Of a DNA stretch of 64,000 nucleotides, positions 3 through 55,371 are shown piece after piece. The stretch comes from Panorpa germanica (Eukaryota > Arthropoda > Insecta > Mecoptera > Panorpidae). Position 1 is the stretch's first letter. Each line of letters starts with the position of its first letter. The DNA is taken from contig OY783216.1 in assembly GCA_963678705.1 (NCBI GenBank), forward strand, positions 15,206,596 to 15,270,595, written 5' to 3'. The notes below the pieces were generated by a model. That model did not search any database and was not told the DNA's origin. It was given only the letters and a program-made list of their open reading frames with translations. A program made the position numbers and the translations under genes.

Positions 3-410
3 TTGAGTGGTACGGGTTTCAACATTAATGATGAGTGGGTCGCATCGCTTTTGTTAGCGGGATTAACAGAAAAATATTCCCCTATGATAATGGCGATCGA
101 GCATTGCGGCATACCATTGACAGCAGACGCCATTAAAACAAAGTTGTTGGACATGGAAGAAAGCGAAAACGGTGGCGACAGCAGCGCTTTCAATTCCAGT
201 GGAGTGTTTGCGAGTTATAAGAAGAACCGGAATGTTGGTGGCACTTCAACCAGAGACAATGCCCATATGTCAAAGTCAAAACCAAAGGTCATAACATGCA
301 ATAAATGTAAACAAACAGGGCATTACCGTAATCAGTGTACATTTTCGAACAAAAATTCATGGAATACAAACAATAATGAACGTACAAGTAGTAATGCGTT
401 TTGTTCTTGA
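3..410 (+). CDS. Copia Gag, C-terminal part
   Basis: This partial Gag binds element RNA and builds the virus-like particle. The visible part begins inside the UBN2/copia Gag domain (around residues 10-55) and ends with a CCHC zinc knuckle, C-N-K-C-x4-H-x4-C, at roughly residues 99-112. The true start lies outside the window. The frame ends at TGA 408-410 and overlaps the pol frame, which begins by 401 in the -1 frame. Copia elements usually have one gag-pol frame, so the shift is either a disabling indel near 395-405 or a recoding site; I favour an indel because no obvious slippery heptamer stands there. Confidence 0.8.
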   Translation: MSGTGFNINDEWVASLLLAGLTEKYSPMIMAIEHCGIPLTADAIKTKLLDMEESENGGDSSAFNSSGVFASYKKNRNVGGTSTRDNAHMSKSKPKVITCNKCKQTGHYRNQCTFSNKNSWNTNNNERTSSNAFCS

Positions 411-3400
411 ATGGTGAATTTTGCAAAAGCGATTGGTATATTGACTCCGGGGCGAGTGTTCATCTTACCGCGAACAAAGAATGGTTGTCAAATGTGTCGC
501 GGGATCTTAAGATTAAGGAAATTGTCGTGGCAAACAAAAATAAAATACCTGTATTATGCACTGGAGATGTGCAAATTACGACAAAGACGCACGCCAGTGA
601 ATACGATATTACAGTGGAAGGTGTATTGTGCGTACCAAAGTTGACTACAAATCTGTTGTCTGTTAGTCAACTTATATCCAAACGAAACAAAGTTTTATTT
701 AACAACAATGGTTGTCAAATTTTCAATAAGGCAGGAGTACTTGTGGCTACAGCATGTCTGTTGAATGGTGTATATAAACTGAATATGTCTGAATATTGTT
801 CAGCAACTGCAATGACTGTGTCCAGTGAAGTTTGGCATCGACGTTTAGGTCATGTCAACAGCCAGTATTTGAACAAGATGCAAGATGCTGTAGAGGGATT
901 GACAATTGATAGTAAGATTGATATGTCCAAGTCATCATGTGTCGCATGCTGTGAGGGCAAGCAAAGCCGGTTGCCTTTTTCCAAAGAAGGGAGCAGAAGT
1001 ACTGAGTTGTTACATATTGTGCATACCGATCTCTGTGGACCAATGGAAAATCGGTCAATAGGTGGTTCGACATACTTCATGCTGTTCATCGATGATTTTA
1101 GTCGTATGACATATATTTATTTCCTAAAAACAAAGGGTGAGGCGTTGAAATGCTTTCAACAATACAAAGCAGAGGTTGAGAATCAACTTAATCACAGGAT
1201 TAAGATTTTGAGAAGTGACAATGGGGCAGAATTCTGCAACAGCAAGTTTGATGATTTTTTGATGTCGCATGGGATAGTACATCACAAAACTAACCCATAC
1301 ACGCCAGAGCAGAATGGACTCTCGGAGCGATATAACCGGACTATTGTTGAGAAAGCCAGGTGTCTGTTGTTCGATGCAGGTCTCGAGAAAAGGTTTTGGG
1401 CAGAGGCTGCACACACTGCAGTGTACTTACAGAACAGGACTGTGACTACATCCTTAAATTATAAAACTCCTTTCGAGATATGGACAGATAGAAAGCCTGA
1501 TGTAAGTCACCTACGTATTTTTGGTAGCATAATTATGGTACATGTGCCAAAACAAAAGAGATTGAAATGGGACAGAAAAGCTGAAAAGTGTATCCTTGTC
1601 GGCTATTCTAAAGATGTCAAAGGGTACAGGATTTACAACCCAAAGTCTAATGTCATCACTACCAGTAGGGATGTTATAGTATTGGAGAAGATAGAGACAG
1701 AGAATAATCTTCTGGAGGTACAGGAACATTGTTCAGATGATGTGAATACAGTTCCAGTAGAAGAAGAAGATTTGACACTTAAGGAAGATTCACATGAACA
1801 ATCAGATAGCTTGAACATGGATGACAGTGGTGAAATGTATGTACCTTGTGAAGATGAAACATTAGATAGCTCAGAGTCTGGTGCAACAGACAGTGAAGAC
1901 TCCATATTACTCAACAATGTCAACACAATAAGTGGTCCTCGGCGTAGAAAGCAGCCAGACAGATTTGGATTTGCAAGTGCTTGCATAGAAGAAGACCAGA
2001 TGTTAACGGGTGAGATATTGTTGCAAGAAGCCTTGGAAGGATCTGAGAAAGCACAGTGGTTAGCGGCAGTGCAGGAAGAGCTACAGTCGTTCGAGAAAAA
2101 TAGTGCGTGGGAACTCGTAGTTGTTCCAAAAGATGGTACTATAGTGCAGTGCAAGTGGGTGTTGCGAAAAAAGTACAACAGTGAAAACAATGTGCGTTAC
2201 CGTGCTCGTCTAGTCGCAAAGGGCTTCACCAAAAAACATGGTGTGGACTATGCTGAAACATTTTCGCCTGTAGTGAGACATACAACTCTTAGACTATTAT
2301 TTGCATTGTCTGTAAAGTTAGGTTTAGATGTCACTCATTTAGATGTTAAGACTGCGTTCTTAAATGGTGATTTAGAGGAAACCATTTACATGAAAATGCC
2401 AGATTGTTATAATAGTAGTAGTTCAGTTAGTAAAGTATTAAAACTTAAAAAGGCCATTTATGGACTTAAGCAGGCCTCTAGGGCCTGGAATAAAAAGGTA
2501 GATGATTGTTTGATCAGTAATGGTTATGAAAGATCAAAAATAGAGCCATGTATGTATATAAAGGATAATAACAAATGTAAGACCATTGTAACAGTCTATG
2601 TCGATGATTTCTTTATATTTTAGAACGATAAAACTGAAAATAAGAGCTTGAAACAGATTTTATCTAATAAGTTTAGCATTAAAGACTTAGGTGATGTTAA
2701 ACTTTGTCTTAAAATGAATGTAACCTTTAACAAAGATAAAGGATATGTAACTTTGAGCCAGCAAACTTATATTGATCAATTATTGAACAAATTTAATTTA
2801 AGTGATTGTAAGGTTGTTGATACACCACCTATGGAGGTCAAATTAAATGTAAGTAAAGGTGAAGTAGGTGTAAATAAATGTGTGCCCTATCAACAACTAA
2901 TTGGTAGTTTGATGGACCTGTCAGTCTTAACTAGGCCAGATATTAGTTATTCTATAAGTTTTTTGAGTCAATTCAATAATTGCCACACTAAACAGCATTG
3001 GGAATATGCAAAAAGATTATTGAGATATCTTAAAAGAACTATATCTTATGGAATAAAATATTGTAAAGATGGTAACTCAGAAATAAGAGGCTATGTTGAT
3101 GCTGATTGGGCTTCTAACTCTGAAGATAGGAGATCATATACTGGGATGTGTTTTTTGTTGTCTCATGGTGTAATATCATGGGAATGTAGAAAACCGAAAT
3201 GTGTAGCTCTCTTAAGTTCTGAATCAGAGTACATTGGTCTATCTGAGGCATGTAGAGAAGCAATATATCTTAAGGAATTACAGTATGAAATAACCAATAA
3301 GATGTACACAATAAGCATATTCAATGATAACCAAGGCGCACAGAAGTTGTGTGCAAACCCAGTCTTTTATAAACGTACAAAGCATATTGATATCAAATAT

Positions 3401-3550
3401 CATTTTTGTCGTGATTTAGTAAAAGATAAAATTGTTGAAGTACTATATGTGCCAACAGCTGATAGGCCAGCTGACATTTTAACGAAAAGTTTATGTTCAG
3501 CAAAGCATTATAAATTTATGTTACTTCTTGGGATAGTTAGTTTAGATTAA
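401..3550 (+). pseudogene. Copia Pol (PR-IN-RT-RH), one internal stop
   Basis: Polyprotein for processing, integration and reverse transcription. Seen in order: protease motif Y-I-D-S-G-A-S near residue 15; GAG-pre-integrase W-H-R-R-L-G-H near 145; integrase catalytic Asp in V-H-T-D (about 208), Asp in R-S-D-N-G (about 271) and Glu in N-G-L-S-E-R (about 308); RT Asp in L-D-V-K-T-A-F (about 647) and Y-V-D-D (733-736). TAG at 2621-2623 ends the frame five residues after YVDD; the same frame then stays open from 2624 to 3550 with the RNase H motifs D-A-D-W-A-S, S-S-E-S-E-Y and D-N-Q-G-A. A single nonsense change is the only lesion visible in pol, so decay is recent. Confidence 0.92.
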
Positions 3551-3760: not shown

Positions 3761-5709
3761 ACTGAAGTGGCATTAATTTATACCAGTCTTGATGGATTAC
3801 CCCCATGTAATAGAGATATCTGTGTCTATCCTAGAGGCAGTAATTTGTATACAATCAATATTTTAAATGAAAACTGCGATCCAATGATCTATCCTCTTCT
3901 GTGTCTAACTGGTGAAAAAGGTTGTTTGGAGAACCTTTTAAATGTTACTAAACTTAAAAGAGTAACACATAGGCAATTTTATAGTTTTTGGCTAAGATGC
4001 ACAAATTTATTTAATCCATATTTAAGTGCTGGTAAATTATCTCAGCAATATATCGTTGATGCTTATTCAAAAGTAGAAAGCAATCGGTTAAATTTTATTA
4101 GAAATAGTAATAGTCAGAAAAAATTACGTTTAGAATTATACAGTGGCTTAATGGATTACGTACAAAATAGGGCAAGTAATGAGGGCATGACTGTAGGTCG
4201 TATGGTTATTTTACCATCTTCTTACGTTAGAAGTCCTCGCTCATTAACACAAAATTACTTACTATTACTTAAATTATGTCTATAGTTCAAAAATTCGGTT
4301 CTCCTGATTTATTTGTCACAATGACTTGTAATCCAGAATGGCCTGAAATTAAAAGTAATTTAAACGAAAATCAACGTGTGGAACATCGTCCTGATTTAGT
4401 TGCTCGAGTGTTTAATTTAAAAATAAAAGAATTATTAAACGATTTACTTAAAGTCAACATTTTTGGAAAAGAAGCAGCAATGATGTCTGTAGTCAAATTT
4501 CAAAAACGTGGGTTGCCCCATATTCATATTTTAATTATTTTAAACAGCAAGCATAAAATTAGAAATTCCGAAGCTATTGATAAAATAGTATGTGCCGAAA
4601 TACCAGATATTGAAACGGAACCAGAATTATATAGTGTTATTAAAAAGTGTAACGTCCATGGGCCCTGCGGAACAGTTAATCCTAAATCGCCATGTATGAT
4701 AAATTTCGAATGTACTAAGCGCTTTCCAAAAGAATTTTAACCAGAAACATTAAATAATGTAAACGGCTATCCGTTATTCAGGCGTCGCGACAATAATTCT
4801 AAAATTGCATTTTTTGATAGAGGCGGTAAATTTAAATACGCTGTTGATAATCGCTTGATAGTTCCATTTAATAAATATTTATCGTATAAATATAATTGTC
4901 AAATTAATGTAGAAATATGCGCTTCGGTTAAAAGCGTTGAATATCTATTTAAATATATTTATAAAGGACATGATTGCGCCAATGTTAAAATGTCTACGGA
5001 AGGACAAACACAACTAAATTGGGACGAAGTTTCTTTTTATTTGGATGCACGTTACGTTAGTCCGCCAGAAGCCATATGGCGCATATTTGCATTCGATATG
5101 CAATTTAAAACACACTCTATCTATCGTTTAGCAGTGCATTTGGAAAACCATCAAAGCATACTTTTTACACCTGGCGAGAAAGAATTGGCTATAATAAACC
5201 ATATTGACACCACGTTAACTGCATGGTTTAAATTAAATTTACATTCATTAGATTCTAGAAAATATTTTTACACCGAAATTCCGCAACATTTCGTATTTAA
5301 TCGTAAGAAAATTTGGACACAACGGAAACGATCAGGATCTAAGATAATTGCTCGGCTTTATAGTGTTAGCCATAAGAAAGGAGAACGTTTTTATTTGCGT
5401 TTAGTTTTATTGCATATTCGAAGTGCTACATGTTATGCTGATCTGCGAACTGTTAATGGCACTGTTTATTCCACTTTTGCTGAAACTGCTAAGGCACTTG
5501 GACTATTAAAAGATGATTCTCAATGGAACCGTTGCTTAGAGGAAGCATCGTTATGTAAAATGCCTAAACAATTACGTCAACTTTTTGCGTTTATTTGTAT
5601 CTTCTGTGAACCTACAGACGTAAAGAAATTGTGGGATACTCATATGGATTGTTTATTTGAAGATTATAATTTAAAATATGATAAAGAAAATGCAGAGCAA
5701 CTAGCCATT
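3761..5709 (+). pseudogene. Helitron Rep (Helitron_like_N and HUH nuclease), broken
   Basis: N-terminal half of the Helitron Rep-helicase, which nicks and joins single strands during rolling-circle transposition. It opens inside the Helitron_like_N region (E-V-A-L-I-Y, then C-V-Y-P-R-G). The HUH motif reads G-L-P-H-I-H-I (His at 4519 and 4525). The two catalytic Tyr, four residues apart as in known Helitrons, are in Y-L-F-K-Y (4942-4956). Lesions: a frameshift between 4255 and 4276, TAA at 4738-4740, loss of the N terminus to the copia insertion, and separation from the helicase by BEL at 5710. All catalytic residues are still present. Confidence 0.88.
5705..5709. repeat. BEL target-site duplication, left (CCATT)
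   Basis: CCATT directly before the TG of the 5' LTR at 5710; matched by CCATT at 20622-20626 after the 3' LTR. Five bp is the usual BEL/Pao duplication length. Confidence 0.9.
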
Positions 5710-5945
5710 TGTTCAGTATTGCATAGTATTGAATAGTTGTAATTATAAGTTCGTTCTTTAAAGGTTTAAATATATAATAAACAGCTTACATCCGTTATTT
5801 GATTCACTTATAAATCCCTACACCCCGATAGCGATTTATAGAATAAAATATAAATAATTAAAATACATAATAAATTTCGCGTTCGATTAATTTCTTACGC
5901 GAACGTCCCTTATAGAAAGCTAAAGGTTTTTTATGAAACTTAACA
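5710..5945 (+). repeat. BEL 5' LTR with internal deletion
   Basis: Starts TGTTCAGTATTGCAT, the same 15 bases as the 3' LTR at 20156, and ends CTTAACA like the 3' LTR. It is 236 bp against 466 bp: a net 230 bp of U3 is missing after the first 15 bases. At the join stand extra bases AGTATTG, which copy bases just upstream, as in template-slip repair. From about 5732 onward the two LTRs align nearly base for base. Confidence 0.9.
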
Positions 5946-5997: not shown

Positions 5998-6410
5998 ACG
6001 TTTGATTGTGCCAACTTGTGTAGTTCATAAATGCCATTAGTGTCATAGTGCATCCAGACCACAAGCCATCGTACTCTAATCGAACGTATTATTGTGAAAC
6101 AGATTGTGCAGTGCGTAAATGCCATTCGTTCATTGTGCATGAAGAACACAAATCTTCGAATTTTTAACATTCAAAAAAGCTTGGAAGGTGTAGCCGTGTG
6201 GCTCACAGTAACAGTCCAAGAGAGCCTAGTAGCATATAAAAGCTACAATTAGCTCAATCCATTAGCCATCCATCATGGGTGAAAGAAAAGTTTGATTGTG
6301 CCAGCCTGTGCATCCAGAACACAAGCCATCGTACTCTAATCAAACGTATTATTGTGAAACAGATTGTGCAGTGCGTAAATGCCATTCGTTCATTGTGCAT
6401 GAAGAACACA
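5998..6410 (+). repeat. BEL leader tandem repeats, left portion
   Basis: The BEL 5' leader is built of about 258-bp repeats (anchor phrases GTTTGATTGTGCCA and CCATCCATCATG). Copy 1 ends near 6287; copy 2 starts near 6288 and is cut at 6410 by the Polinton-like insert, resuming at 17702. Each copy ends with an ATG in the gag-start context: 6275 in copy 1 opens a six-codon frame ending in TGA. Confidence 0.85.
6405..6410. repeat. Polinton-like target-site duplication, left (AACACA)
   Basis: AACACA before the element start AGTAGTGG; matched by AACACA at 17696-17701. Six bp is the Polinton/Maverick duplication length. Confidence 0.92.
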
Positions 6411-6663
6411 AGTAGTGGTACAAAGCCGTTTCTAGGACAGTTTTGAAGTTGAGTTGGAAATTATTGGGGTGGGGATGCATTTAGGTCACGATATGCAGAG
6501 GGGGCGTGACTATACTTGAAAGAATGTAAAAGGGGGTAAGGGTGGGGGGCATATAGGTCATATGATCTAATGCCATGTATAGGATGTATTGCTATTGGTT
6601 TAGAAGATGATGACGTCAGTACAGACTTTATCTCTAGGTACAGTCTCTTTAATATCCTAGGAT
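6411..6663 (+). other. Polinton-like terminal region upstream of small ORF
   Basis: About 250 bp with G-rich runs on the plus strand and no coding potential. A perfect CRE-type palindrome TGACGTCA (about 6610-6617) stands some 50 bp upstream of the small ORF start; the right arm has TGACGTTA instead. It may hold the promoter of the small ORF, but no TATA box is clear. Confidence 0.4.
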
Positions 6664-6945
6664 ATGAGTGAGATAGCGATATTAATAATTATGTGTGTGT
6701 TGGTATTGGTGAAGAAGATACGCCGTAATTATTGCATTCTTCGTCAATTTCCGGAAGCCAATCGTTTATGTTCGTATCCTCGATGTAGCTGTGGATGCAG
6801 TCGGTATATTCCCACTTATGTATTTTTATGTATGTATGCATATGTAAGAAGATTCTGTTGTTGGAGGTGGTATTTAATATGGAGTGGTAGAGATGGTAAA
6901 TTAATGCATAAATGTCATTTAAATAGAGATGATGTTGAGCTGTAA
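6664..6945 (+). CDS. Small Cys-rich membrane-type protein, left arm
   Basis: ATG-started ORF of 93 codons. Residues 3-17 (E-I-A-I-L-I-I-M-C-V-L-V-L-V) form a hydrophobic segment followed by K-K-I-R-R, like a signal anchor with a cytoplasmic basic flank. The middle is Cys-rich: C-S-Y-P-R-C-S-C-G-C, then C-C-W-R-W. The protein is identical to the one encoded on the right arm (17161-17442), while flanking non-coding bases differ slightly. I recognise no family. Function unknown; the position just inside the element end suggests a gene of the element rather than a chance ORF, but recent arm homogenisation could explain the identity as well. Confidence 0.5.
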   Translation: MSEIAILIIMCVLVLVKKIRRNYCILRQFPEANRLCSYPRCSCGCSRYIPTYVFLCMYAYVRRFCCWRWYLIWSGRDGKLMHKCHLNRDDVEL

Positions 6946-7043
6946 TTACAAAGTAATGTTTTCTTAGTTCAAGCTAAAGTTTAATAGTATGAACGGATTT
7001 AAGAATATTCCAGGCGTAACATGGTTATTGGATTCGGGGGATT

Positions 7044-8420
7044 GGTACTGATGGGGGATAAATTTTTTATCAAAAATGCAATATCTTCAACCGTTTACGA
7101 GATATTTAAAGTTTTATTTTTTAGAAATTAAATCCGCCATTTTGGCTTAAATTTTTTTACTTTCGTCTTCTAATCGTGTTCTCCTGTTAGGGTGTTGGTA
7201 CTGATAAGGCATAAATTTTTTATCAAAAATGCAATATCTTCAACCGTTTACGAGATATTTAAAGTTTTATTTTTTAGAAATTAAATCCGCCATTTTCACT
7301 AAAATTTTTTTACTTTCGTCTTCTAAACGTGTTCTCCTGTTAGGGTGTTGGTACTGATAGGGGATAAATTTTTTATCAAAAATGCAATATCTTCAACCGT
7401 TTACGAGTTATTTAAAGTTTTATTTTTTAGAAATTAAATCCGCCATTTTGACTTAAATTTTTTTACTTTCGTCTTCTAAACGTGTTCTCCTGTTAGGGTG
7501 TTGGTACTGATGGGGGATAAATTTTTTATCAAAAATGCAATATCTTCAACCGTTTACGAGATATTTAAAGTTTTATTTTTTAGAAATTAAATCCGCCATT
7601 TTGACTAAAATTTTTTTACTTTCGTCTTCTAAACGTGTTCTCCTGTTAGGGTATTGGTACTGATAAGGGATAAATTTTTTATCAAAAATGCAATATCTTC
7701 AACCGTTTACGAGATATTTAAAGTTTTATTTTTTAGAAATTAAATCCGCCATTTTGACTAAAATTTTTTTACTTTCGTCTTCTAAACGTGTTCTCCTGTT
7801 AGGGTATTGGTACTGATGGGGGATAAATTTTTTATCAAAAATGCAATATCTTCAACCGTTTACGAGATATTTAAAGTTTTATTTTTTAGAAATTAAATCC
7901 GTTATTTTGACTAAAATTTTTTTACTTTCGTCTTCTAAACATGTTCTCCTGTTAGGGTATTGGTACTGATGGGGGATAAATTTTTTATCAAAAATGCAAT
8001 ATCTTCAACCGTTTACGAGATATTTAAAGTTTTATTTTTTAGAAATTAAATCCGCCATTTTGGCTTAAATTTTTTTACTTTCGTCTTCTAAACGTGTTCT
8101 CCTGTTAGGGTATTGGTACTGATGGGGGATAAATTTTTTATCAAAAATGCAATATCTTCAACCGTTTACGAGATATTTAAAGTTTTATTTTTTAGAAATT
8201 AAATCCGCCATTTTGACTAAAATTTTTTTACTTTTGTCTTCTAAACGTGTTCTCCTGTTAGGGTATTGGTACTGATGGGGGATAAATTTTTTATCAAAAA
8301 TGCAATATCTTCAACCGTTTACGAGATATTTAATGTTTTATTTTTTAGAAATTAAATCCGCCATTTTGGCTAAAAATTTTTTACTTTCGTCTTCTAAACG
8401 TGTTCTCCTGTTAGGGTGTT
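7044..8420 (+). repeat. 153-bp tandem array, left arm (9 units)
   Basis: Nine units of exactly 153 bp on average (GGTACTGAT recurs from 7044 to 8421; 1377 = 9 x 153). Each unit contains TTTTTTATCAAAAATGCAAT, CTTCAACCGTTTACGAG and CTAAACGTGTTCTCCTG. Units differ by a few bases. No protein coding. The array lies between the small ORF and polB and could act as a promoter or as a pairing/recombination substrate; that is inference. Confidence 0.95.
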
Positions 8421-8548
8421 GGTACTGATGTTGAATACTAAATGTTGAATGAAAACGTCTGCTGAAAAAAGAACTGCAAATATATAATATATTTAAATTT
8501 TTTTATAACAAGAAGAAAATAATAAGAGTTAAAAAAAAGATTTATGAT

Positions 8549-11500
8549 ATGTATACCTGCAATGAGTGTAATACGTCATTTTCAAGATTGGATAATCTGA
8601 AACGTCATGAAAATGTATCTTGTAATTCAAATAAATTATTGTGTGAATATTGTGGTTTCATATGTACAAATATAAGAAATTATACTCATCATTTATTGAA
8701 AATACATCAAATTGAATTGGAGTGCAATAATAAACGCAAATTGGATGCTGAACCTGAAATATCAAGTAAACGATCCAAAGCGGAGTTAATTGAGAGTTCA
8801 TTAACTAAAAAGAAAATTACGGATTGGTGTAATGTATGCAAAAGTAATGTGTTAAATAAAAATCTATATAATCATTATAAAGACTAGCAAGTGTAGTTGT
8901 AGAATGCGATAATGATATACAAAAGATTACTTCAGCATTTAAGAATCGTATTGCAACATATAGATTACATACTAAGGAAATGTTTAACAGTATTAAAGAA
9001 TACATGATATTTTTTCAAAATAAAGTATTCGTATTATTGGAAAAGTATTTAAAAGAATTTATTACAATTAAAGTAAATATTGAATTATTTGGTTTATATG
9101 TAAAATATAATAAAGATGAGAAGTTATTAATTGATATAAAATCTTTTAACACTAAAAATAAAGTGATTAATAAATCCATGGATCTAATGGAAATATATAA
9201 TAATTTTAGAAATGTTATTGAAATAAAAAGTGAAGAATTTCAAGAACGTGATTCAGGATGGAGTCTTAAGGAAATAATGCATTTGGAAATAAATATTAAC
9301 AGATATAATCCTTTGCGGGGATCATCTTATATTGATTTACCAAAGAAAGTTAAAGATAAAAAGGCTATAGTAAATGTAATAAATAATGATCAAGCTTGCT
9401 TTATGTGGGCTATAACTTCAGCATTGTATCCAGCATCAAAAAGTATGGATAGAGTTACATCATATCCACATTATTCAAAAGTACTTAATTCAAATGGTAT
9501 AGATGAACCGATGAAATTAAAAGATATTAGAACATTTGAGAAGAATAATGATATAAGTGTGAATGTTTATGGACTTGAAAATAATTTCATTGTGGAACCG
9601 TTGCATTATACATCTAAAAAGAAGAAACAACATGTTAATTTATTGTATATTGAAGATTTGAGTAATGGACATTATTGTTGGATTAAAAATATATCAAGAT
9701 TAATAAGAAGTCAATTTACTAAGCATACTAGTAAACAATTTTTGTGTGATGGATGCTTTTCATTTTTTAACACAGAAGATCAGTTAAATAGACATTTAGA
9801 ATATGATTGCAATAAGATATATACAATCCTTCCTTCTAAGTATAACGCTAAAGATAAATTGGGTAATATGATATCTCAAAACATTTTAAAATTCGATAAT
9901 CATAAGAATCAATTACGCGTTCCATTTGTGATATATGGAGATTTTGAAACATTATTAAAACCCATTAGTACTTGTTATCCTGAAACTAATACATCATTTT
10001 CAAATAATATTCAAATTCATGAACCATATTCTTTTGCTTATTATATTAAATGTTCCTTTAATGATTCCTTAAGTAAGTTTGTTACGTACAGAGGTATTAA
10101 TTGCGTTAAAGTATTTATTGAAACAATAACTGAAGACGCTAAACAAATTTATAAAGTCTTAAATAAAGTGAAGCCTTTAAATAAATTATCTGATTGGCAA
10201 AAACAGGAATATGATGAAGCTTCTATTTGCCATATTTGTGAAGGTATCCTCAATGGTGATAAAGTGTTAGATCATTGTCATTTAACTGGTAATTACCGAG
10301 GAGCTGCTCATAATCATTGCAATTTAAAATTTACAATTCCAAAGTTTATACCTGTAATATTCCATAACTAAAGTAATTACGATAACCATATAATTGTAAA
10401 AGAATTAGGTAATGATAGTGGAAAAATTGAAGTTATTCCAGAAAATAAGGAAAAGTATATATCTTTTACGAAACATATTTTGGTGGAATCAAAAGTCGAT
10501 AAAAATGATAAAGTTCATAACTGCTATATTAAACTTAGATTTATTGATTCTTTACGATTTATGCATTCTAGTTTAGAAACACTTGCAAAAAATTTATTAT
10601 CAGAACAATTTTTCGAATTAAAAAAATTCTATCCGAATGAAAATCATTTCAATTTATTAAAACGTAAAGGTGTATTTCCTTATGAATATGTAAATAGTAG
10701 GGATATGCTTAATGAATCTGACTTGCCATCTCAAAATAATTTTTATAGCTCACTTAATGGCTGTAATATATCTGACGATGATTACAATCATGCCAAAATG
10801 GTTTGGTATGCATTTGAAATGAAAACATTGGGGGAATATTCAGACTTATATTTAAAGATCGATGTTCTGTTGTTAACAGATATTTTTGAAAATTTTCGAG
10901 ATGTGTGCTATAAAACATATAATTTAGATCTCTGTCAATATTATACAGCACCAGGACTTTCTTGGGATGCTATGTTAAAGTATACAAGTATTGAATTAGA
11001 ACTTTTAACAGATATTGATATGTTACATTTTATTAAAAAAGGTATAAGAGGTGGAATATCACAATGCTCTCACAGACATGGAATTGCAAATAATAAATAT
11101 ATGTCCAATTATGATTCAAATAAAGATTCTCAATATTTAATGTATTGGGATGCAAATAACTTATATGGTTGGGCTATGAGTCAATATTTACCACATGAGG
11201 GATTTAAATGGTTAGATACATATAAATTACAAACATTTAATGTAGAAGCTATTGAAGATAACTCAGATGTTGGTTATATATTAGAAGTCGATTTAAGATA
11301 TCCTAATTATTTGCACGATGAACACAATGATCTACCTTTCTGTGCCGAAAATATTAAACCACCTTGCATTAAAACAAATGACGTTAAATTAATACCAAAT
11401 CTAAATAACAAGTATAATTATGTGCTTCACTATAGATCGTTAAAGCAATGTCTTAAAAATAATCTGAAAATAGATAAAATTCATAGAATTTTGGAATTTA

Positions 11501-12371
11501 AACAGTCTGATTGGTTAAAAAGTTATATTGATCTAAATACATTAAAAAGAAAGAACTCTGCAAATGCATTTGAGAAAGACTTTTTTAAATTAATGAATAA
11601 TTCAGTTTATGGTAAAACAATGGAAAATGTAGATAAACGTGTCGATGTAAAGTTAATAACTCATTGGGATAATATAGGAAAAAAATGGGTGCTAATACAC
11701 TTATAAGTAAACCAAACTATCATAGTTGTTCTATATTTCATGAAAACTTAGTTGCTATTTAAATGCAAAAACTTAAAGTTTTTTATAATAAACCATTGTA
11801 TTTAGGATTAAGTGTACTTGATATATCAAAAACTTTAATATACGATTTTCATTATGATTTCATCAAAAAAATCTATAAAGGTAATGCTAAATTGTTGTAT
11901 ACAGATACAGATTCATTAATATATCAAATTAAAACAGATGATATATATAACGATATTAAGTGTAATCTAGATAAATTTGATACATCTAATTATCCATTTA
12001 ATAATGAATTTTCATTACCTTTAATGAACAAAGCTAAATTAGGCTTATTGAAAGATGAATGCGCGGGTAGTATAATTTGGGAGTTTGTTGGGTTAAGGTC
12101 ACAAATGTATGCAATTGATATTGAGGGTTCATGCACAGCTAAAGCAAAAGGAATTAAGAAAAATATTGTAAACAAATTCAATATTCAAGATTATGTAAAT
12201 TGTTTATCTCAGGATAACATATTATTGATCACAATGAATACCTTTAAATCGATTAAGCATACAATTTATACTCAAATGATAAGTAAAGTAGGTCTTAGTG
12301 GAAATGATAATAAAAGATATGTATTAACTGATGGTATAAGTACTTTAGCACATGGACATTATAAAATTTAG
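8549..12371 (+). pseudogene. Protein-primed family B DNA polymerase (PolB), broken
   Basis: Replicative polymerase of Polinton-type elements. Order: N-terminal Cys/His fingers (C-N-E-C ... H, C-E-Y-C ... H); a segment with C-F-M-W-A and G-H-Y-C-W resembling a Cys-protease fold; exo I Asp/Glu in Y-G-D-F-E-T (about 9937); an endonuclease VII-like Cys/His patch (C-H-I-C at 10228 to N-H-C-N at 10325); exo II-type N-Y-D; polymerase motif A D-A-N-N-L-Y-G (about 11150), B N-N-S-V-Y-G-K (about 11600), C Y-T-D-T-D-S (about 11898). Lesions: a 16-bp deletion near 8880 (frameshift), TAA 10369-10371 where the other arm has TTA, a frameshift at the A-run 11679-11685, TAA 11760-11762. Catalytic residues remain. 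Start chosen at ATG 8549 because the right-arm copy begins identically. Confidence 0.9.
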
Positions 12372-12858
12372 TACTAATTTTAAGTTAAGTTTAAGTTTTG
12401 TATAAATTTATATCTGTTTTAGTTAAGATAATTAAAATGTATATTTATATAACAATTGAAAAATAGCATATTTGTAAATAAATAATAATATATAAACACA
12501 AACCATTGAGTTTTATTATTATAAGATTTAATGTTTTAATACATCCATATAAAATAAGATACACATATTTTATTAGTAATGTTTTGTTATATATAATTCT
12601 TATATGATTAACACTGGTCATAAGAGCTCTAATATATATGCATAGACATATTAATGTATGAGTATGCGTACATAAACTGGATGACAATTGTATACGTTAT
12701 ATGCAGGAGCAGTACCCAAATCAATTCATTAGTGAATGCAGGCATGTCAAAAAACCAATATTTCATTTCTTATTATCATACCAACGTAATGGGAATGTAA
12801 CTTGGAATATTGGAATAGTGGTGTAGGTTAGGTTACACACCCGCGGAGCGTAATTCAA
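12372..12858. other. AT-rich spacer between polB end and central hairpin
   Basis: No ORF of interest and no repeat shared with the arms. Mostly A/T with short TA runs; from about 12780 GC rises and short ACGTAA words appear, leading into the hairpin. It is the only part of the element outside the arms that is not polB. Confidence 0.6.
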
Positions 12859-12962
12859 CGTAACATGAACGTAATGGGAACGTAACTTGAACGTAATTCA
12901 ACGTAACTTGAACGTAATTCAACGTAACGTTCAAGTTACGTTCCCATTACGTTCAAGTTACG
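12859..12962. repeat. Central hairpin made of ACGTAACTTGA words
   Basis: Arms 12859-12894 and 12927-12962 are reverse complements with one mismatch (28 bp perfect: 12867-12894 with 12927-12954), leaving a 32-base loop that repeats the same words (AACGTAACTTGAACGTAATT). The right half abuts the truncated polB copy of the right arm at 12963, so the hairpin marks the palindrome junction. A stem of this size invites fold-back synthesis. Confidence 0.88.
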
Positions 12963-15098
12963 TTTACGTTTTAATAAATTGAAATGATTTTCATTCGGAT
13001 AGAATTTTTTTAATTCGAAAAATTGTTCTGATAATAAATTTTTTGCAAGTGTTTCTAAACTAGAATGCATAAATCGTAAAGAATCAATAAATCTAAGTTT
13101 AATATAGCAGTTATGAACTTTATCATTTTTATCGACTTTTGATTCCACCAAAATATGTTTCGTAAAAGATATATACTTTTCCTTATTTTCTGGAATAACT
13201 TCAATTTTTCCACTATCATTACCTAATTCTTTTACAATTATATGGTTATCGTAATTACTTAAGTTATGGAATATTACAGGTATAAACTTTGGAATTGTAA
13301 ATTTTAAATTGCAATGATTATGAGCAGCTCCTCGGTAATTACCAGTTAAATGACAATGATCTAACACTTTATCACCATTGAGGATACCTTCACAAATATG
13401 GCAAATAGAAGCTTCATCATATTCCTGTTTTTGCCAATCAGATAATTTATTTAAAGGCTTCACTTTATTTAAGACTTTATAAATTTGTTTAGCGTCTTCA
13501 GTTATTGTTTCAATAAATACTTTAACGCAATTAATACCTCTGTACGTAACAAACTTACTTAAGGAATCATTAAAGGAACATTTAATATAATAAGCAAAAG
13601 AATATGGTTCATGAATTTGAATATTATTTGAAAATGATGTATTAGTTTCAGGATAACAAGTACTAATGGGTTTTAATAATGTTTCAAAATCTCCATATAT
13701 CACAAATGGAACGCGTAATTGATTCTTATGATTATCGAATTTTAAAATGTTTTGAGATATCATATTACCCAATTTATCTTTAGCGTTATACTTAGAAGGA
13801 AGGATTGTATATATCTTATTGCAATCATATTCTAAATGTCTATTTAACTGATCTTCTGTGTTAAAAAATGAAAAGCATCCATCACACAAAAATTGTTTAC
13901 TAGTATGCTTAGTAAATTGACTTCTTATTAATCTTGATATATTTTTAATCCAACAATAATGTCCATTACTCAAATCTTCAATATACAATAAATTAACATG
14001 TTGTTTCTTCTTTTTAGATGTATAATGCAACGGTTCCACAATGAAATTATTTTCAAGTCCATAAACATTCACACTTATATCATTATTCTTCTCAAATGTT
14101 CTAATATCTTTTAATTTCATCGGTTCATCTATACCATTTGAATTAAGTACTTTTGAATAATGTGGATATGATGTAACTCTATCCATACTTTTTGATGCTG
14201 GATACAATGCTGAAGTTATAGCCCACATAAAGCAAGCTTGATCATTATTTATTACATTTACTATAGCCTTTTTATCTTTATCTTTCTTTGGTAAATCAAT
14301 ATAAGATGATCCCCGCAAAGGATTATATCTGTTAATATTTATTTCCAAATGCATTATTTCCTTAAGACTCCATCCTGAATCACGTTCTTGAAATTCTTCA
14401 CTTTTTATTTCAATAACATTTCTAAAATTATTATATATTTCCATTAGATCCATGGATTTATTAATCACTTTATTTTTAGTGTTAAAAGATTTTATATCAA
14501 TTAATAACTTCTCATCTTTATTATATTTTACATATAAACCAAATAATTCAATATTTACTTTAATTGTAATAAATTCTTTTAAATACTTTTCCAATAATAC
14601 GAATACTTTATTTTGAAAAAATATCATGTATTCTTTAATACTGTTAAACATTTTCTTAGTATGTAATCTATATGTTGCAATACGATTCTTAAATGCTGAA
14701 GTAATCTTTTGTATATCATTATCGCATTCTACAACTACACTTGCTAGTCTTTTATGCTCATTACTTTTATAATTATTATATAGATTTTTATTTAACACAT
14801 TACTTTTGCATACATTACACCAATCCGTAATTTTCTTTTTAGTTAATGAACTCTCAATTAACTCCGCTTTGGATCGTTTACTTGATATTTCAGGTTTAGC
14901 ATCCAATTTGCGTTTATTATTGCACTCAAATTTAATTTGATGTATTTTCAATAAATGATGAGTATAATTTCTTATATTTGTATATATGAAACCACAATAT
15001 TCACACAATAATTTATTTGAATTAAAAGATACATTTTCATGACGTTTCAGATTATCCAATCTTGAAAATGACGTATTACAATCATTGCAGGTATACAT
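12963..15098 (-). pseudogene. PolB N-terminal two thirds, right-arm copy
   Basis: Uninterrupted frame of about 712 residues from ATG at 15098, read on the minus strand, equal to the left-arm PolB N-terminus but without its stop and 16-bp deletion. It covers the Cys/His fingers, the candidate protease-like segment, exo I (Y-G-D-F-E-T), the endonuclease VII-like patch and exo II, and stops before polymerase motifs A-C. At the junction (12963) the frame runs into hairpin sequence for a few codons and ends at 12936. It lacks the polymerase palm, so it cannot polymerise; whether the truncated product has a role is unknown. Confidence 0.88.
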
Positions 15099-15225
15099 AT
15101 CATAAATCTTTTTTTTAACTCTTATTATTTTCTTCTTGTTATAAAAAAAATTAAATATATTATATATTTGCAGTTCTTTTTTCAGCAGACGTTTTCATTC
15201 AACATTTAGTATTCAACATCAGTAC

Positions 15226-17062
15226 CAATACCCTAACAGGAGAACACGTTTAGAAGACGAAAGTAAAAAAATTTTAGTCAAAATGGCGGATTTAATTTCT
15301 AAAAAATAAAACTTTAAATATCTCGTAAACGGTTGAAGATATTGCATTTTTGATAAAAAATTTATCCCCCATCAGTACCAACACCCTAACAGGAGAACAC
15401 GTTTAGAAGACGAAAGTAAAAAAATTTTAGCCAAAATGGCGGATTTAATTTCTAAAGAATAAAACATTAAATATCTCGTAAACGGTTGAAGATATTGCAT
15501 TTTTGATAAAAAATTTATCCCCCATCAGTACCAATACCCTAACAGGAGAACACGTTTAGAAGACGAAAGTAAAAAAATTAAAGCCAAAATGGCGGATTTA
15601 ATTTCTAAAAAATAAAACTTTAAATATCTCGTAAACGGTTGAAGATATTGCATTTTTGATAAAAAATTTATCCCCCATCAGTAACAATACCCTAACAGGA
15701 AAACACGTTTAGAAGACGAAAGTAAAAAAATTTTAGTCAAAATGGCGGATTTAATTTCTAAAAAATAAAACTTTAAATATCTCGTAAACGGTTGAAGATA
15801 TTGCATTTTTGATAAAAAGTTTATCCCCCATCAGTACCAATACCCTAACAGGAGAACACGTTTAGAAGACGAAAGTAAAAAAATTTTAGTCAAAATGGCG
15901 GATTTATTTTCTAAAAAATAAAACTTTAAATATCTCGTAAACGGTTGAAGATATTGCATTTTTGATAAAAAATTTATCCCCCATCAGTACCAATACCCTA
16001 ACAGGAGAACACGTTTAGAAGACGAAAGTAAAAAAATTTAAGCCAAAATGGCGGATTTAATTTCTAAAAAATAAAACTTTAAATATCTCGTAAACGGTTG
16101 AAGATATTGCATTTTTGATAAAAAATTTATCCCCCATCAGTACCAATACCCTAACAGGAGAACACGTTTAGAATACGAAAGTAAAAAAATTTAAGCCAAA
16201 AAGGCGGATTTAATTTCTAAAAAATAAAACTTTAAATATCTCGTAAACGGTTGAAGATATTGCATTTTTGATAAAAAATTTATCCCCCATCCGTACCAAT
16301 ACCCTAACAGGAGAACACGTTTAGAAGACGAAAGTAAAAAAATTTTAGTCAAAATGGCGGATTTAATTTCTAAAAAATAAAACTTTAAATATCTCGTAAA
16401 CGGTTGAAGATATTGCATTTTTGATAAAAAATTTATCCCCCATCAGTACCAATACCCTAACAGGAGAACACGTTTAGAAGACGAAAGTAAAAAATTTTTA
16501 GTCAAAATGGCGGATTTAATTTCTAAAAAATAAAACTTTAAATATCTCGTAAACGGTTGAAGATATTGCATTTTTGATAAAAAATTTATCCCCCATCAGT
16601 ACCAATACCCTAACAGGAGAACACGTTTAGAAGACGAAAGTAAAAAAATTTTAGTCAAAATGGCGGATTTAATTTCTAAAAAATAAAACTTTAAATAACT
16701 CGTAAACGGTTGAAGATATTGCAATTTTGATAAAAAATTTATCCCCCATCAGTACCAACACCTTAACAGGAGAACACGTTTAGAAGACGAAAGTAAAAAA
16801 ATTTTAGTGAAAATGGCGGATTTAATTTCTAAAAAATAAAACTTTAAATATCTCGTAAACGGTTGAAGATATTGCATTTTTGATAAAAAATTTATGCCTT
16901 ATCAGTACCAACACCCTAACAGGAGAACACGATTAGAAGACGAAAGTAAAAAAATTTAAGCCAAAATGGCGGATTTAATTTCTAAAAATTAAAACTTTAA
17001 ATATCTCGTAAACGGTTGAAGATATTGCATTTTTGATAAAAAATTTATCCCCCATCAGTACC
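15226..17062 (-). repeat. 153-bp tandem array, right arm (12 units)
   Basis: Same unit as in the left arm, inverted. 17062 - 15226 = 1836 = 12 x 153. Unit-to-unit variants (for example ATTTTAGTC versus TTTAAGCC) differ in order from the left array, so units have expanded or contracted since the arms formed. Confidence 0.95.
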
Positions 17063-17160
17063 AATCCCCCGAATCCAATAACCATGTTACGCCTGGAATA
17101 TTCTTAAATCCGTTCATACTATTAAACTTTAGCTTGAACTAAGAAAACATTACTCTGTAA

Positions 17161-17442
17161 TTACAGCTCAACATCATCTCTATTTAAATGACATTTATGC
17201 ATTAATTTACCATCTCTACCACTCCATATTAAATACCACCTCCAACAACAGAATCTTCTTACATATGCATACATACATAAAAATACATAAGTGGGAATAT
17301 ACCGACTGCATCCACAGCTACATCGAGGATACGAACATAAACGATTGGCTTCCGGAAATTGACGAAGAATGCAATAATTACGGCGTATCTTCTTCACCAA
17401 TACCAACACACACATAATTATTAATATCGCTATCTCACTCAT
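17161..17442 (-). CDS. Small Cys-rich membrane-type protein, right arm
   Basis: Second copy of the 93-residue protein, identical in sequence to 6664-6945, starting at ATG 17442 and reading towards the element centre. Same N-terminal hydrophobic segment, basic stop and Cys clusters. No family recognised. Confidence 0.5.
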   Translation of the reverse strand: MSEIAILIIMCVLVLVKKIRRNYCILRQFPEANRLCSYPRCSCGCSRYIPTYVFLCMYAYVRRFCCWRWYLIWSGRDGKLMHKCHLNRDDVEL

Positions 17443-17695
17443 ATCCTAGGATATTAAAGAGACTGTACCTAGAGATAAAGTCTGTACTGACGTTATCATC
17501 TTCTAAACCAATAGCAATACATCGTATACATGGCATTAGATCATATGACCTATATGCCCCCCACCCTTACCCCCTTTTACATTCTTTCAAGTATAGTCAC
17601 GCCTCCTCTGCATATCGTGACCTAAATGCATCCCCACCCCAATAATTTCCAACTCAACTTCAAAACTGTCCTAGAAACGGCTTTGTACCACTACT

Positions 17696-17701
17696 AACAC
17701 A
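17696..17701. repeat. Polinton-like target-site duplication, right (AACACA)
   Basis: Right partner of 6405-6410; BEL leader sequence (AATCTTCGAATTT) continues directly after it, as in the uninterrupted leader repeats. Confidence 0.92.
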
Positions 17702-20626: not shown

Positions 20627-22130
20627 AATGACATTATTGACATTTTAATAACTAACAATTGTAATTATTTACATTTTGGTTTACCGGAGAAACGAACTGT
20701 TAGTATTGAAGATACTAATGACAACTCAGTCAATCAGCAAACAGAATATGAGCAGGGCCTTAACTACTGTAGTCAATTAAATTTAGAATAGCGTAATGTT
20801 TTCGACAATATTATGTTATGTATTAATAATGACAATGAAAAGCAAAAATGTTATTTTATTGACGGCCCAGGTGGTAGCGGTAAAACTTTTTTGTACACTA
20901 CTTTATTACATATTGTACGTGGTTTGGGATTAACAGCTGTATCAGTAGCATGTACTGGTGTTGCAGCCACATTATTACATGGGGGTCGCACGCTTCATTC
21001 TATATTTAAATTACCAGTTCCTTTAAATGCCGACTCAACTTCATCAATAAGGCACAATTTAGTTGATGGTAAATTACTAAAAGAAGCCAAATTAATTATA
21101 TGGGATGAGGTTACAATGGCGCCTTATTTTGCTTTAGATATAATTGATATGTGCCTCCGCGATCTAATGAACAATAACGAACCATTTGGCAATAAAATTA
21201 TGTTACTTGGGGGAGACTTTCGACAATGTCTACCTGTCGTAAAACGTGGTTCAGTTCAAGATGTAATTGCATCTTGTATTCAAAATAGTAGACTATGGTC
21301 TGTTTTTAGCGTGCAAAACTTAACAATTAATATGAGGGTTTCAGAAACGGAAAATGAATTTACAACATGGTTACTTAAAATTGGCGATGGATTAGTATCA
21401 GATCTTCCAGATAGTGTTACAAGTGTGATTAGGATTCCATCAAATTTTATTGCTAACAAGTCATTAGTAGACGAAATATATGAAGATATTAATTTAATTG
21501 ACATTATTGATCTTAAATCGCGCATTATTTTATGTCCATTAAATGAACATACATTAGAAATAAATGAGGAAGTTTTAAATATGTTAAATGGCGAGACCAT
21601 CTTAGTAATGATTCTGTTTCAGCTGATTCGGAAGCTGAGCAAAATAATTTTCCTATAGAATTTTTGAATAGTTTAACGCCAGCTGGAATGCCACCTCATA
21701 AACTTAATTTAAAAATCGGAGCTATAATAATGCTTTTGAGAAACATGAATCCTAAGAATGGTCTCTGTAACGGAACGAGACTAATAGTAAAGGAACTTCA
21801 TTAAGTGGAAGTCATTTAGGTAACCGCGCTTTTATACCAAAAATTGTTTTAGCTCCTTCAGATATAAATCTTCCATTTACTCTTAAAAGAATTCAGTTTC
21901 CTATTCGTTTAGCTTTTGCTATGGCCATCAACAAATCGCAAGGACAAACATTTGAAAAGGTTGGCGTTTTATTAAGGGAACCAGTCTTTGCACATGGTCA
22001 ATTATATGTAGCCCTTTCGCGAGTAAAATCATCCAATAATCTTAAAATAGAAATATCTGATCCAAAAGGTAAAAAATCTAATAACAACGCATTTACATCC
22101 AGTGTAGTTTATAAAAGAGTTCTGTTATAA
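20627..22130 (+). pseudogene. Helitron PIF1-type helicase domain, broken
   Basis: C-terminal half of the Helitron Rep-helicase; it unwinds donor DNA during rolling-circle transposition. Seen: conserved C-N-Y-L-H-F-G-L-P before the helicase (about 20660); Walker A G-P-G-G-S-G-K-T (20864-20887); Walker B W-D-E-V-T-M-A-P (about 21101); G-G-D-F-R-Q-C-L-P-V (about 21210); late motifs A-M-A-I-N-K-S-Q-G-Q-T and Y-V-A-L-S-R-V near 21921-22030. Lesions: TAG 20789-20791 where the family has Gln before Arg, a frameshift near 21590, stops around 21800-21830. Frame closes at TAA 22128-22130. The upstream half is at 3761-5709. Confidence 0.9.
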
Positions 22131-24088: not shown

Positions 24089-27000
24089 ATGATAAATTTT
24101 ATTCAATGGAATTGCAGAGGAGTCAGATATATTAAAGAGGAACTACAACATATGTTACAGAAGCATAACATACATATATGCATACTATCAGAAACGTTTT
24201 TAACAAAAAATATCAATTTCAACATCAAAGGTTATTTTATTGAAAGAGAAGATAGGATACAGAATACAAATTATAATCCCCACGGGGGTGTTGCTATCTT
24301 GATTCATAAATCTATAAAATATAAACGAGTAATGCTAAATAACCCATTTAATTCGGTCGAAATAGTTGGAATAATTTTAACACATAACGAAACTGATGTA
24401 ATATGTATTTTATCAATCTATGCTAAACCGAATCATAAACTATCTAATTCTAATTGGTCACAGATAAAACAACAAATAGATGTTCCTGTTATACTTGCTG
24501 GAGATTTTAACGCGACTAATCTTGCTTGGGATATAAATTGTCCAGGTAGTCAGTATGAAGGTAACGAATTGTTAGATTTCATAGAAAACGAAAATCTAAA
24601 TATTATCAACGATGATAAACCAACTAGAGTAAGCAATCTCAGTACAAGGGACAGTATATTGGATCTCACATTGGTACCAATGACGTTAACACAACAAATT
24701 ACTTCGTGGCAAGTTCTTGCAGATAGCTTAGGTAGTGATCACTACCCAATTTTTTTCTGTTTGAATGACTATAATAAAGACCGTTACCGTACATCTGAAT
24801 ATTTAACGAGGAGAAATTTCCGAAAAGCAGATTGGGAGAAATATAGCCTTGAAATAGAAAGCAGAATTTCAAACCTTAGCACAAATGGAATCACAAGTAA
24901 TCCCCAAGATGTTGAAAACAAATACAACCAATTTAGAGATGTTATTAATAATTCGGCAGACATACATATCCCATCTACCAGATTGTATAATATAACTCCT
25001 AATAAAATAAAACCGTCTTGGTGGGACACTGAGTGCAATAAAATGATAGCTCAAAGAAAATTAGCACTAACTATTTTTAATAAAAACATGACAATGGCGA
25101 ATTATTTAAATTATAAAAAACATCAAGCTAAAACCAGACGATATTTTAGAGCCAGGAAAAAAATAGAATGGCAAAATTTCTGCGAGAATTTAAACCCAAA
25201 CACAACAACCAACATTGTCTGGAATAATATAAGAAAAATTAACAATAAAAGCTATAGTACTAAAAGGATAAGTGATAATGAAAATTTAATAGAAGAATTC
25301 ATTAAAAAAAAATTTCCACAGAACAACAATTTAAATATTACTACCACCACCATCGTAAAAGATAATTTTCTAGATAATAACATAAATAAAAATGAAGTAA
25401 AATTCGCGTTAAATCATAATAAAAACAGTAGCACAGGATTTGATAGAATAAATTACAAAATGATACAAAACTTACCTGACAATGCAATAAATCATCTTAC
25501 ACAAATATACAATCTGTCATTAAACACTGCTGATATACCATTAGACTGGAAAAAACATATCGTTGTTCCTATATTAAAAACAGGAAAAGATCCAAACAAA
25601 GAAGAATCATTCAGACCAATTACTTTACTATCATGTATGGGCAAAACTATGGAATCCATCATCAAAAACAGACTGGAGTGGTATCTCGAACATCATAAAA
25701 GATTACCTGAGTTACAATTTGCTTTTAGAAAAACAAGAAGTACACAGCATCACTTAAACATATTGAATATCGATATTCAAAGAACATACAGTAAAAATCA
25801 TTATATGATAGCTGCTTTCATTGACATTGAAGCTGCTTATGACAATGTTAATCTAAAAATATTAAAAGAAAAAGTAGAAAACATAGGTATATCTTCCAAA
25901 ATATCCAACTGGATTATAAAATACTTCCAAAATAGAGAAATAACAGTTAGATACAATAATAAGTTAACTGGTCCTATACTATGTAATCACGGAATTCCAC
26001 AAGGCTCAATATTATCTCCCTTATTATTCAACATATACACAGAAAAGTTAACAACATTATCAGATAACAACACAACAGTACTGATGTATGCAGATGACAT
26101 GGTTATTTATAGTATGGGCCATACACAAGATATAGCTCAAAACAGATTACAATCGAAATTAAGAAAACTAGATATTTTACTAAAGGAAATCAAATTAAAT
26201 ATATCGTCAGAAAAAAGTAAAATAGTTATATTTACAAGGCATAGAATAAACTGCAGTCCAAAAATAACCATCAGAAATAAAAATATAACTGTTAGTTCAA
26301 ATACCAAATTTCTGGGTATATTCTTTGATACGAAAAGCACTTGGGCGAAAGAAATTGCACATATTATTAACAAATGTCAAAAAGGCTTAAATTTGATGCG
26401 ATGTATAGCAGGATACAAATGGGGCGCACACCCAACAACCTTAATAAAAATATATAAAGCTATTGTTAGACCGCATATTGACTATTCTAGTACTATGATC
26501 TGCACCGCAAATAACTCAAGATTAAAAAAAATTGAAATTATACAAAACAAATGTTTAAGAATAATATTAGGTGCAATGGTTTCAACACCAATCCAAATCC
26601 TCAACTATCAAACTAATATTCCTCCGGTAAATATCAGAATACAACAAATATCAGACAGTTTCTTTTGTAAAAACAGACATAACTCATGTGGCCCCTTAAA
26701 TACAAGATTATCTAAACTATATGTTCTTTATAATAAACCATATTGGACAACTCATAAAAAACCGGCACTTTTAACTAGTTTTGATAGATATAATAACTTG
26801 AACTTAGAGGTACACAACATTATACCTTTTTTCAAATTTCCATTAGAAATAAGCATGACAACAATACATACAGAAATAAATTTGTTCAAGAAGAATGACA
26901 GTAAGGAAATAACTTATCAAAAATATATGGAATATATAACAAAAGATGATATAAACTGGAGTATATGGTTTACCGATGGTTCATTCGAAATAAACTCTAA

Positions 27001-27999: not shown

Positions 28000-28012
28000 T
28001 TTATATTCTGCA
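28000..28012. repeat. LINE target-site duplication, right (13 bp)
   Basis: TTTATATTCTGCA after the A tail; exact match to 22237-22249. Confidence 0.93.
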
Positions 28013-50158: not shown

Positions 50159-50643
50159 TGGGGGCTCAACTAAGGATTTAAATAACATCAAAACAGCTAA
50201 AACCACAGCTGGTAATCTAGCTAACACCCACTAAGGTGTAAGGTAGACCCACAATTGGAAACGTCGACCAGGATAAGTTAATTGTCACCCCACGCTTGAG
50301 GGCGTTAACCGGGATAAAGGAAAAACCAAGTTTATTCCGTCAAGAATATTTTTAACCTTTGAACCAGAACTATTGACCAACAGATAAGGAAACAAGCTTA
50401 TTCAGTCAAGAATAATCTTAACTTCCAGGTGCATACAATTTACTCGTCAAAGTTATTGCACTTCAATCTGTAACAGTGACAATTAAAACAATGATAAAAG
50501 AAAAACCAAGTATATTATGTCAAGAATACTCTTAACCTTTGGACCAGAACTATTGACCAACAGATACTCTTAACTTCCAGGTACGTACAATTTACTCGTT
50601 AAAATAATTGCACTTCAATCTGTTAGCAGTGATAAATATAACA
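50159..50643 (+). other. G1 primer-binding-like site and leader
   Basis: TGGGGGCTCAACTAAGG at 50159 stands at the LTR end in the place of the primer site. The leader that follows contains a roughly 200-bp internal duplication (AAAAACCAAGT..., CCAGAACTATTGACCAACAG twice). Compared with G3, G1 lacks about 30 bases after the second ACCAACAGATA. Confidence 0.65.
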
Positions 50644-53406: not shown

Positions 53407-53447
53407 ATGTAGCAACTGAGGACAGTTACTAGTCAGGATAGGCCGAA

Positions 53448-54384: not shown

Positions 54385-54404
54385 ATACTCGAATACAATA
54401 CTCG

Positions 54405-55303: not shown

Positions 55304-55371
55304 AATCAAAAGGAAAACTTAGTGTACAGTTTGCTCATTAAAGTAATTGTACAGTAGTGAAAATTATAACA

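Follow-up and report, generated by a model that had tools for sequence, protein, structure and literature searches.

Polintons, also called Mavericks, are defined by AG...CT termini and a 6-base-pair (bp) duplication of the target site, and their terminal repeats measure a few hundred bp. Foldback (FB) elements combine long inverted arms that hold tandem arrays with 9-bp target duplications. Copy-back or self-complementary genomes of protein-primed and parvoviral viruses are inverted repeats of double length that close in a small loop at the centre and have a single kind of end. According to PMC6431247, Polintons encode a protein-primed family B DNA polymerase (PolB) and a retroviral-like DDE integrase, with a cysteine protease and a packaging ATPase as the most conserved among the other frames. 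This report concerns a 64,000-nucleotide stretch of the Panorpa germanica genome (assembly GCA_963678705.1, contig OY783216.1, positions 15,206,596 to 15,270,595; hereafter, the window) and a palindromic, polB-bearing element that spans 6411-17695 within it (G000:C13:15213006-15224290). The element is probably one worn and decayed copy from a family of palindromic Polinton derivatives that is present many times in the genome. We know of no described family with a palindromic, polB-only layout.

The family was explored with the 2288-bp centre of the window element, searched against the whole 464-Mb genome; clusters were built from centre matches of about 600 bp or more, and 38 of 1064 candidates were scored, such that counts are lower bounds. 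Convergent polB pairs are present at 24 of the 38 scored clusters, with gaps of 125-1116 bp between the converging copies (294-422 bp in 17 of the 24). A typical member contains two polB genes in a nearly symmetric arrangement, and most measured members are 13-15 kb long. The palindromes group into subfamilies with related centres. Two kinds of termini are distinguished: type A (AGTAGAGGGTTTGTGAGAG...), which 16 of the 24 convergent clusters carry (40 of 62 end candidates scored), and the type B of the window.

The palindromic units were inserted as wholes. Nine polB palindromes, the window copy among them, were read at both ends; eight are bordered by an exact 6-bp duplication, and the sole one without is the palindrome at C82:30296-44179 (hereafter, C82). 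For type A, ten elements were chosen and both ends were read in six, all six with exact duplications (CACGTC, GATATT, TATAAA, TGCAAC, TTTGTA, and GACCTG), and C8:386717-401191 is flanked by CATATT. The flanks themselves differ between the left and right sides of the palindromes, which argues against artefacts from fold-back reads. The first-pass annotation of the window had proposed a polB-only, fold-back derivative of Polintons and had suggested looking for further palindromes at separate insertion sites, allowing that all other copies might turn out to be full Polintons. The counts above support the proposal: palindromes recur, and they carry duplications of their own. The asymmetric layout that the annotation took as its model is, by contrast, not the typical one.

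The window element is laid out as follows:

6405-6410, no strand: left target-site duplication AACACA, by direct reading
6411-10671, plus strand: left palindrome arm, 4261 bp
6411-7036, plus strand: left terminal region, type B (AGTAGTGGTACAAAGCC...), 626 bp
7037-8430, plus strand: left 153-bp tandem array, 9.1 copies
8549-12371, plus strand: left polB, broken, from frames, in pieces 8549-8887, 8980-10371, 10480-11706, and 11763-12371
10672-12959, no strand: unpaired spacer, 2288 bp, covering the centre together with the C-terminal half of polB
12848-12969, no strand: central hairpin of CGTAACTTGAA / CGTAATTCAA units, from arrays and folding
12936-15098, minus strand: right polB, N-terminal part, truncated, with a 720-amino-acid open frame
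12960-17695, minus strand: right palindrome arm, 4736 bp
15217-17069, minus strand: right 153-bp tandem array, 12.1 copies
17070-17695, minus strand: right terminal region, type B, 626 bp
17696-17701, no strand: right target-site duplication AACACA

The terminal motif is AGTAG...CTACT, and AGTAGTGGTA stands on both sides, inverted; the two type-B terminal regions have 4 mismatches across the 600 columns counted. The three longest ungapped segments of the arms are 97-100% complementary, and the arm differences are indels, chiefly in the 153-bp array. Given its length and identity, the inverted repeat cannot be chance. The junction at 12848-12969 folds at -47 kcal/mol, compared with -17.5 (standard deviation 2.7) for shuffled sequences, and the central arrays of other family members are related to these hairpin units. 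The window copy is broken and asymmetric, and the stretch that forms its spacer is doubled in the symmetric members; it looks like a secondary derivative with a central deletion. It has a common centre with C8:386717-401191, but the right arms start at different points (window-equivalent 10671 versus 11940, the latter preceded by about 120 bp of other sequence), which suggests that deletions near the centre arose independently.

In the two polB palindromes read for frames (window and C82), polymerase is the only gene identified. The third left piece of the window element (10480-11706) matches DNA_pol_B_2 at E 4.6e-19, and every frame of at least 100 amino acids in the element is a polB piece; none encodes integrase, capsid, ATPase, or protease. 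The polymerase is of Polinton type, its named relatives among the best 120 matches being insect proteins that are about 45-56% identical. Thus far the first-pass annotation is confirmed: it had reported the AG...CT ends with the AACACA duplication, a family B polymerase, and no integrase, ATPase, protease, or capsid genes. Its palindrome also stands, with lengths adjusted from 4258, 4733, and 2294 bp to 4261, 4736, and 2288 bp. C82, read in two halves, shows a fuller version: a near-palindrome with type-A termini and arms of about 7 kb, 98.6% alike over 6.5 kb, in which two open, convergent 1279-amino-acid polB frames point at the central hairpin array. Conserved PolB columns are present in the left frame; the remaining frames of at least 80 amino acids number just two (80 and 123), and frame reading of this palindrome found no integrase, capsid, packaging ATPase, or protease.

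Three side observations concern other loci, and one concerns viral sequence. C7:7767608-7784609, a candidate full Polinton with type-A ends, was ruled out by the convergent polB genes inside it (the left one split by an insertion of about 3 kb, the right one in two frames). At C6:17254400-17259300, no inverted arm lies between two same-strand polB copies, the second of which starts truncated. At C209:117389-118325, an open integrase frame is followed after about 10 bp by the start of a polB palindrome, and a capsid match lies nearby at C209:111192; the arrangement is probably a nested insertion. A pattern search of IMG/VR gave two distant relatives (38% identity) among 53 matching stretches, with no inverted repeat of at least 100 bp within these stretches.

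Palindrome arms evolve in concert. Over the outer 1.4 kb, compared in ten chosen elements that were all used, an element's own arms differ by 0-0.43%; differences between the ten elements reach 4.3%, and up to 5.4% when the window is added. The outer arms of the window are 0.72% apart and 3.2-5.4% from those of other elements. Between C6:22.2 and C144 there are 42 differing sites, all 42 common to both arms and none arm-specific, and over the inner 2 kb the arms of C6:22.2 have 0 differences from each other and 10-25 from the other type-A arms compared. Differences between subfamilies are nearly all common to both arms, the exceptions being C82 and, less so, the window and C59.

Array length points in the same direction as arm sequence. 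Arm length varies by 153-bp steps; in 8 of 12 elements the two arms agree to within 20 bp, and in 10 of 12 they are no more than one unit apart. Re-pairing the arms in 20,000 shuffles gave a mean of 1.2 equal pairs and a maximum of 7. These 12 elements were hand-picked: convergent clusters whose type-A ends both figure in the 40 scored end hits and whose arms each allow the polB start to be read. Four more elements with type-A ends stand outside the set: the right polB of C15:920k is partial, C6:20.84M has a single scored end, C7:7.77M is absent from the centre-match list, and the ends of C1:7.89M are 33 kb apart. Elements that are identical or one site apart over 1.4 kb nonetheless differ by 4-6 array units: C10:5.97, C6:19.7, and C7:16.55 are identical across the outer 1.4 kb, and C6:19.7 compared with C7:16.55 has six more units, in both arms; C209 compared with C144 has four fewer, again in both arms. 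C10:5.97 and C6:19.7 differ at 7 of 2000 inner sites.

In C82, the left and right arms come from different subfamilies, 3.5% apart. The one palindrome with arms from two subfamilies is also the only one of the nine that has no duplication, which counts in favour of the family as proposed below; the copy would have arisen by recombination, or by misjoining, at the centre that the subfamilies share. It is uninformative on conversion near the centre, its two subfamilies differing little in the inner 2 kb. As a separate observation, the C144 and C10:5.97 subfamilies are 3.3% apart in the outer 1.4 kb, but of 2000 sites farther in just 8 differ, a pattern that an exchange of outer arm parts between the two lineages would produce.

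The genes missing from the polB palindromes read are found elsewhere: a separate palindrome class carries integrase, and capsid, ATPase, and protease-type genes occur at other places in the genome. An element at C8:417.8k, read at its left end, has a terminus 99.2% identical to that of the window over 632 bp; it bears integrase at C8:422688 and capsid at C8:428798, and its polB is just 66% identical to the window polB. In the search with the type-B terminus (40 of 907 candidates scored), the terminus of C1:2.90M matched the window terminal region at 97.5% over 550 bp. Five elements other than the nine polB palindromes have paired type-B ends, with an exact 6-bp duplication in four of the five (5 of 6 bases match in C1:2.90M), a scored capsid match in all five, and a scored integrase match in three (C1:2.90M, C174, and C6:16.40M). 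Genome-wide, 128 integrase matches (of 2664 candidates) and 133 double-jelly-roll capsid matches (of 499) were scored, most of them without a stop; they are possible helpers for the polB palindromes, and the genome houses a large, apparently young expansion of Polintons. Named integrase relatives among the best 120 matches (57-60%) are from Leptopilina, Glyptapanteles, Tribolium, and Anoplophora.

Among the 128 scored integrase matches, 13 divergent pairs, 2.4-3.1 kb apart, were selected by eye. One, which was read, is the near-perfect 15.5-kb palindrome at C1:22180335-22195876, whose arms match over 4774 bp at 100% and over 2870 bp at 99.97%, with 42 bp between them; each arm has an open integrase frame, broken polB remnants are present, and the central array is of the same kind as in the polB palindromes. 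Its centre matches 40 scored loci (of 574 candidates). Exact 6-bp duplications flank five of the six integrase palindromes with ends read. In addition, inverted repeats of about 3 kb form the ends of C54:253385-267720, an element with one capsid and one ATPase frame, the duplication ATATGC, and polB pieces 98-99% identical to the window polB. Since no integrase occurs in the polB palindromes read (window and C82) and termini are shared, supply of integrase in trans is plausible, and the annotation's suggestion to this effect gains from the terminus shared with C8:417.8k.

We favour, with moderate confidence, a palindromic Polinton family that replicates by folding back, repairs its arms in each round, and receives integrase in trans. 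The moving unit would be linear DNA that has, from either end inward, a terminal repeat, the 153-bp array, and polB, with the two polB copies facing each other across the central hairpin array. The displaced strand, being self-complementary, would fold back at the central array, and the single open end of the resulting half-length hairpin would carry the start site for the polymerase. PolB would then prime at the open end and copy round the loop, restoring the double-length palindrome. At the presumed hairpin stage, the arms would pair in every round, and mismatches as well as differences in array length would be repaired; the arms would stay alike because of this pairing. Polinton integrase, presumably supplied in trans, would insert the unit and generate the 6-bp duplications. 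The right arm of the window copy would subsequently have lost about 2.2 kb beside the centre, and the polB of this copy would have decayed. Nothing else speaks as strongly for fold-back during replication as the concerted arms.

Gene conversion keeps the paired arms of sex-chromosome palindromes alike, and it is possible, though unlikely, that a single fold-back accident was spread by ordinary Polinton replication and that conversion after insertion keeps the arms alike. The arms are alike, and the main support is that mismatches between the window arms become scarcer towards the centre (2 of 1600 sites there versus 9 of 593 farther out, P 0.0002, with the cut set after the profile was inspected), a scarcity that may reflect conversion after insertion. 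Fold-back inversions via single-strand hairpins are known in yeast, according to PMC7467729. Conversion would, however, have to reach the outermost kilobases before new differences arise: arm length is equal in 8 of 12 elements while near-identical sisters differ by 4-6 units in both arms, and the outer arms of C82 are still 3.5% apart, a copy that may be a recent recombinant or misjoin. Several points, beginning with that scarcity near the centre, weigh against the fold-back family, and gene conversion after insertion could also explain the concerted arms. Within subfamilies, other elements are often as close as an element's own arms (the nearest other element is at 0.0% over 1.4 kb for 6 of 11 type-A elements), so that sequence alone shows concert just for subfamilies and for C6:22.2; copying at each insertion is not shown by sequence alone and rests on array length. 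Array length has its exceptions, C10:5.97 and C13:16.1 (one unit), C59 (nine), and C82 (about two). A single polB occupies 14 of the 38 scored clusters, the window being classed as single because its right arm starts just beyond the 2288-bp query. The two open C82 polB frames have a ratio of replacement to silent rates (dN/dS) of about 0.35, which counts in favour of the family; the ratio is based on 28 differences, 11 silent and 17 replacement. No terminal protein was identified, and one integrase palindrome, C1:0.92M, is without a duplication. Type-A ends were unseen on integrase-bearing elements (40 of 62 candidates scored; the ends of C111, C56, and C46 fall outside), and their link to such elements consists solely of the AGTAG first bases and the 6-bp duplication. 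Finally, we infer hairpin replication and trans integration from genome sequence.

Three further alternatives are less favoured. Copy-back defective genomes arise when a growing strand snaps back, and an origin of the palindromes anew, from a half-length polB element by similar snap-back at the central array, is improbable. Such an origin would give identical arms and equal arrays at birth, and the central array folds strongly; yet the two single clusters read out of 14 (the window and a C6:17.25M stretch, itself broken) yielded no intact element of half length bounded by two ends and a duplication of its own, and the palindromes form subfamilies with related centres. An assembly artefact, from fold-back reads or collapsed repeats, is very improbable. 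Some copies do lie on contigs of 49-133 kb, a copy at C5:24.79M runs into a contig end, and C82, which mixes two subfamilies without a duplication, could be a misjoin; fold-back reads would mirror the flanks, whereas the flanks differ and share just the 6-bp duplication in 8 of 9, and all eight duplicated palindromes are on contigs of 16-25 Mb. The convergence of the polB genes would also fit two ordinary elements inserted tail to tail, but this is hardly credible: one pair of ends and one duplication enclose both arms in 8 of 9 palindromes, and convergent pairs recur at 24 loci.

A broader proposal extends the fold-back family to other Polinton genes. The genome's Polintons may in part constitute a divided (multipartite) genome, in which polB, integrase, and capsid sit on separate inverted-repeat segments that complement one another in trans, each replicating as a one-ended hairpin; we regard this as quite unlikely. 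The segments are palindromic or have long inverted repeats, with AGTAG ends and 6-bp duplications, and the lead evidence comprises the polB palindromes, the 13 divergent integrase pairs (one of them read), and C54. Undivided Polintons with both capsid and integrase genes, which are also in the genome, speak against it.

Elsewhere in the window, Copia-like retrotransposon frames occupy 401-3550, the first with RVT_2 and rve domains. Two frames of like orientation bracket the polB element, one of 293 amino acids with no Pfam match (4855-5736) and one for a PIF1-like helicase (20813-21658), and the two are possibly one Helitron split by later insertions. Farther along are an open non-long-terminal-repeat (non-LTR) frame of 1242 amino acids that combines endonuclease, reverse transcriptase, and RNase H domains (24089-27817), a 227-bp tandem array of 5.5 copies with 94% matches (28000-29259), and repeated gag/protease-like frames of LTR-element type (50608-61683), where Pfam matches to a zinc knuckle, SAP, and aspartyl protease come from one frame region, 55357-57429.

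Self-synthesizing elements would gain a new body plan if a palindrome of 13-15 kb, its two arms kept alike, is itself the unit that transposes. The family offers a testable picture of how a protein-primed polymerase could operate from a single kind of end. It also suggests that, within one genome, polymerase and integrase functions have separated onto different units, and transposons may have given rise to plasmids or divided viruses by such a route. In the open literature covered, seen in part (PMC8363768, PMC6431247, PMC12721341, PMC2836005, PMC6035795, and PMC7467729), no palindromic Polinton family is described; subscription journals and Repbase lie outside this scope.

Judged by its ends, duplication, and polymerase, the family is derived from Polintons, and it is non-canonical by gene content and layout. 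The palindromes resemble Polinton/Maverick elements, including those of the adintovirus proposal, in their AG...CT ends, 6-bp duplication (8 of 9), and related polB, and the window shares its terminus with an integrase- and capsid-bearing element. They differ in that the polB palindromes read lack integrase, capsid, ATPase, and protease genes, that the arms, which measure 4.3-4.7 kb in the window and roughly 7 kb in C82, take up nearly the whole element, and that polB is present in two convergent copies. The fold-back inversions of yeast (PMC7467729) likewise have a hairpin at the centre of symmetry; they are chromosome rearrangements, whereas the palindromes are a transposing family. As in Foldback elements, long inverted arms hold tandem arrays, here of 153 bp, but the duplications are of 6 rather than 9 bp and the arms carry a polymerase gene. 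Copy-back and parvoviral self-complementary genomes share the double-length inverted repeat, the single type of end, and the small central loop; the palindromes, unlike these, are inherited, multi-copy, and inserted in chromosomes, with their arms kept alike.

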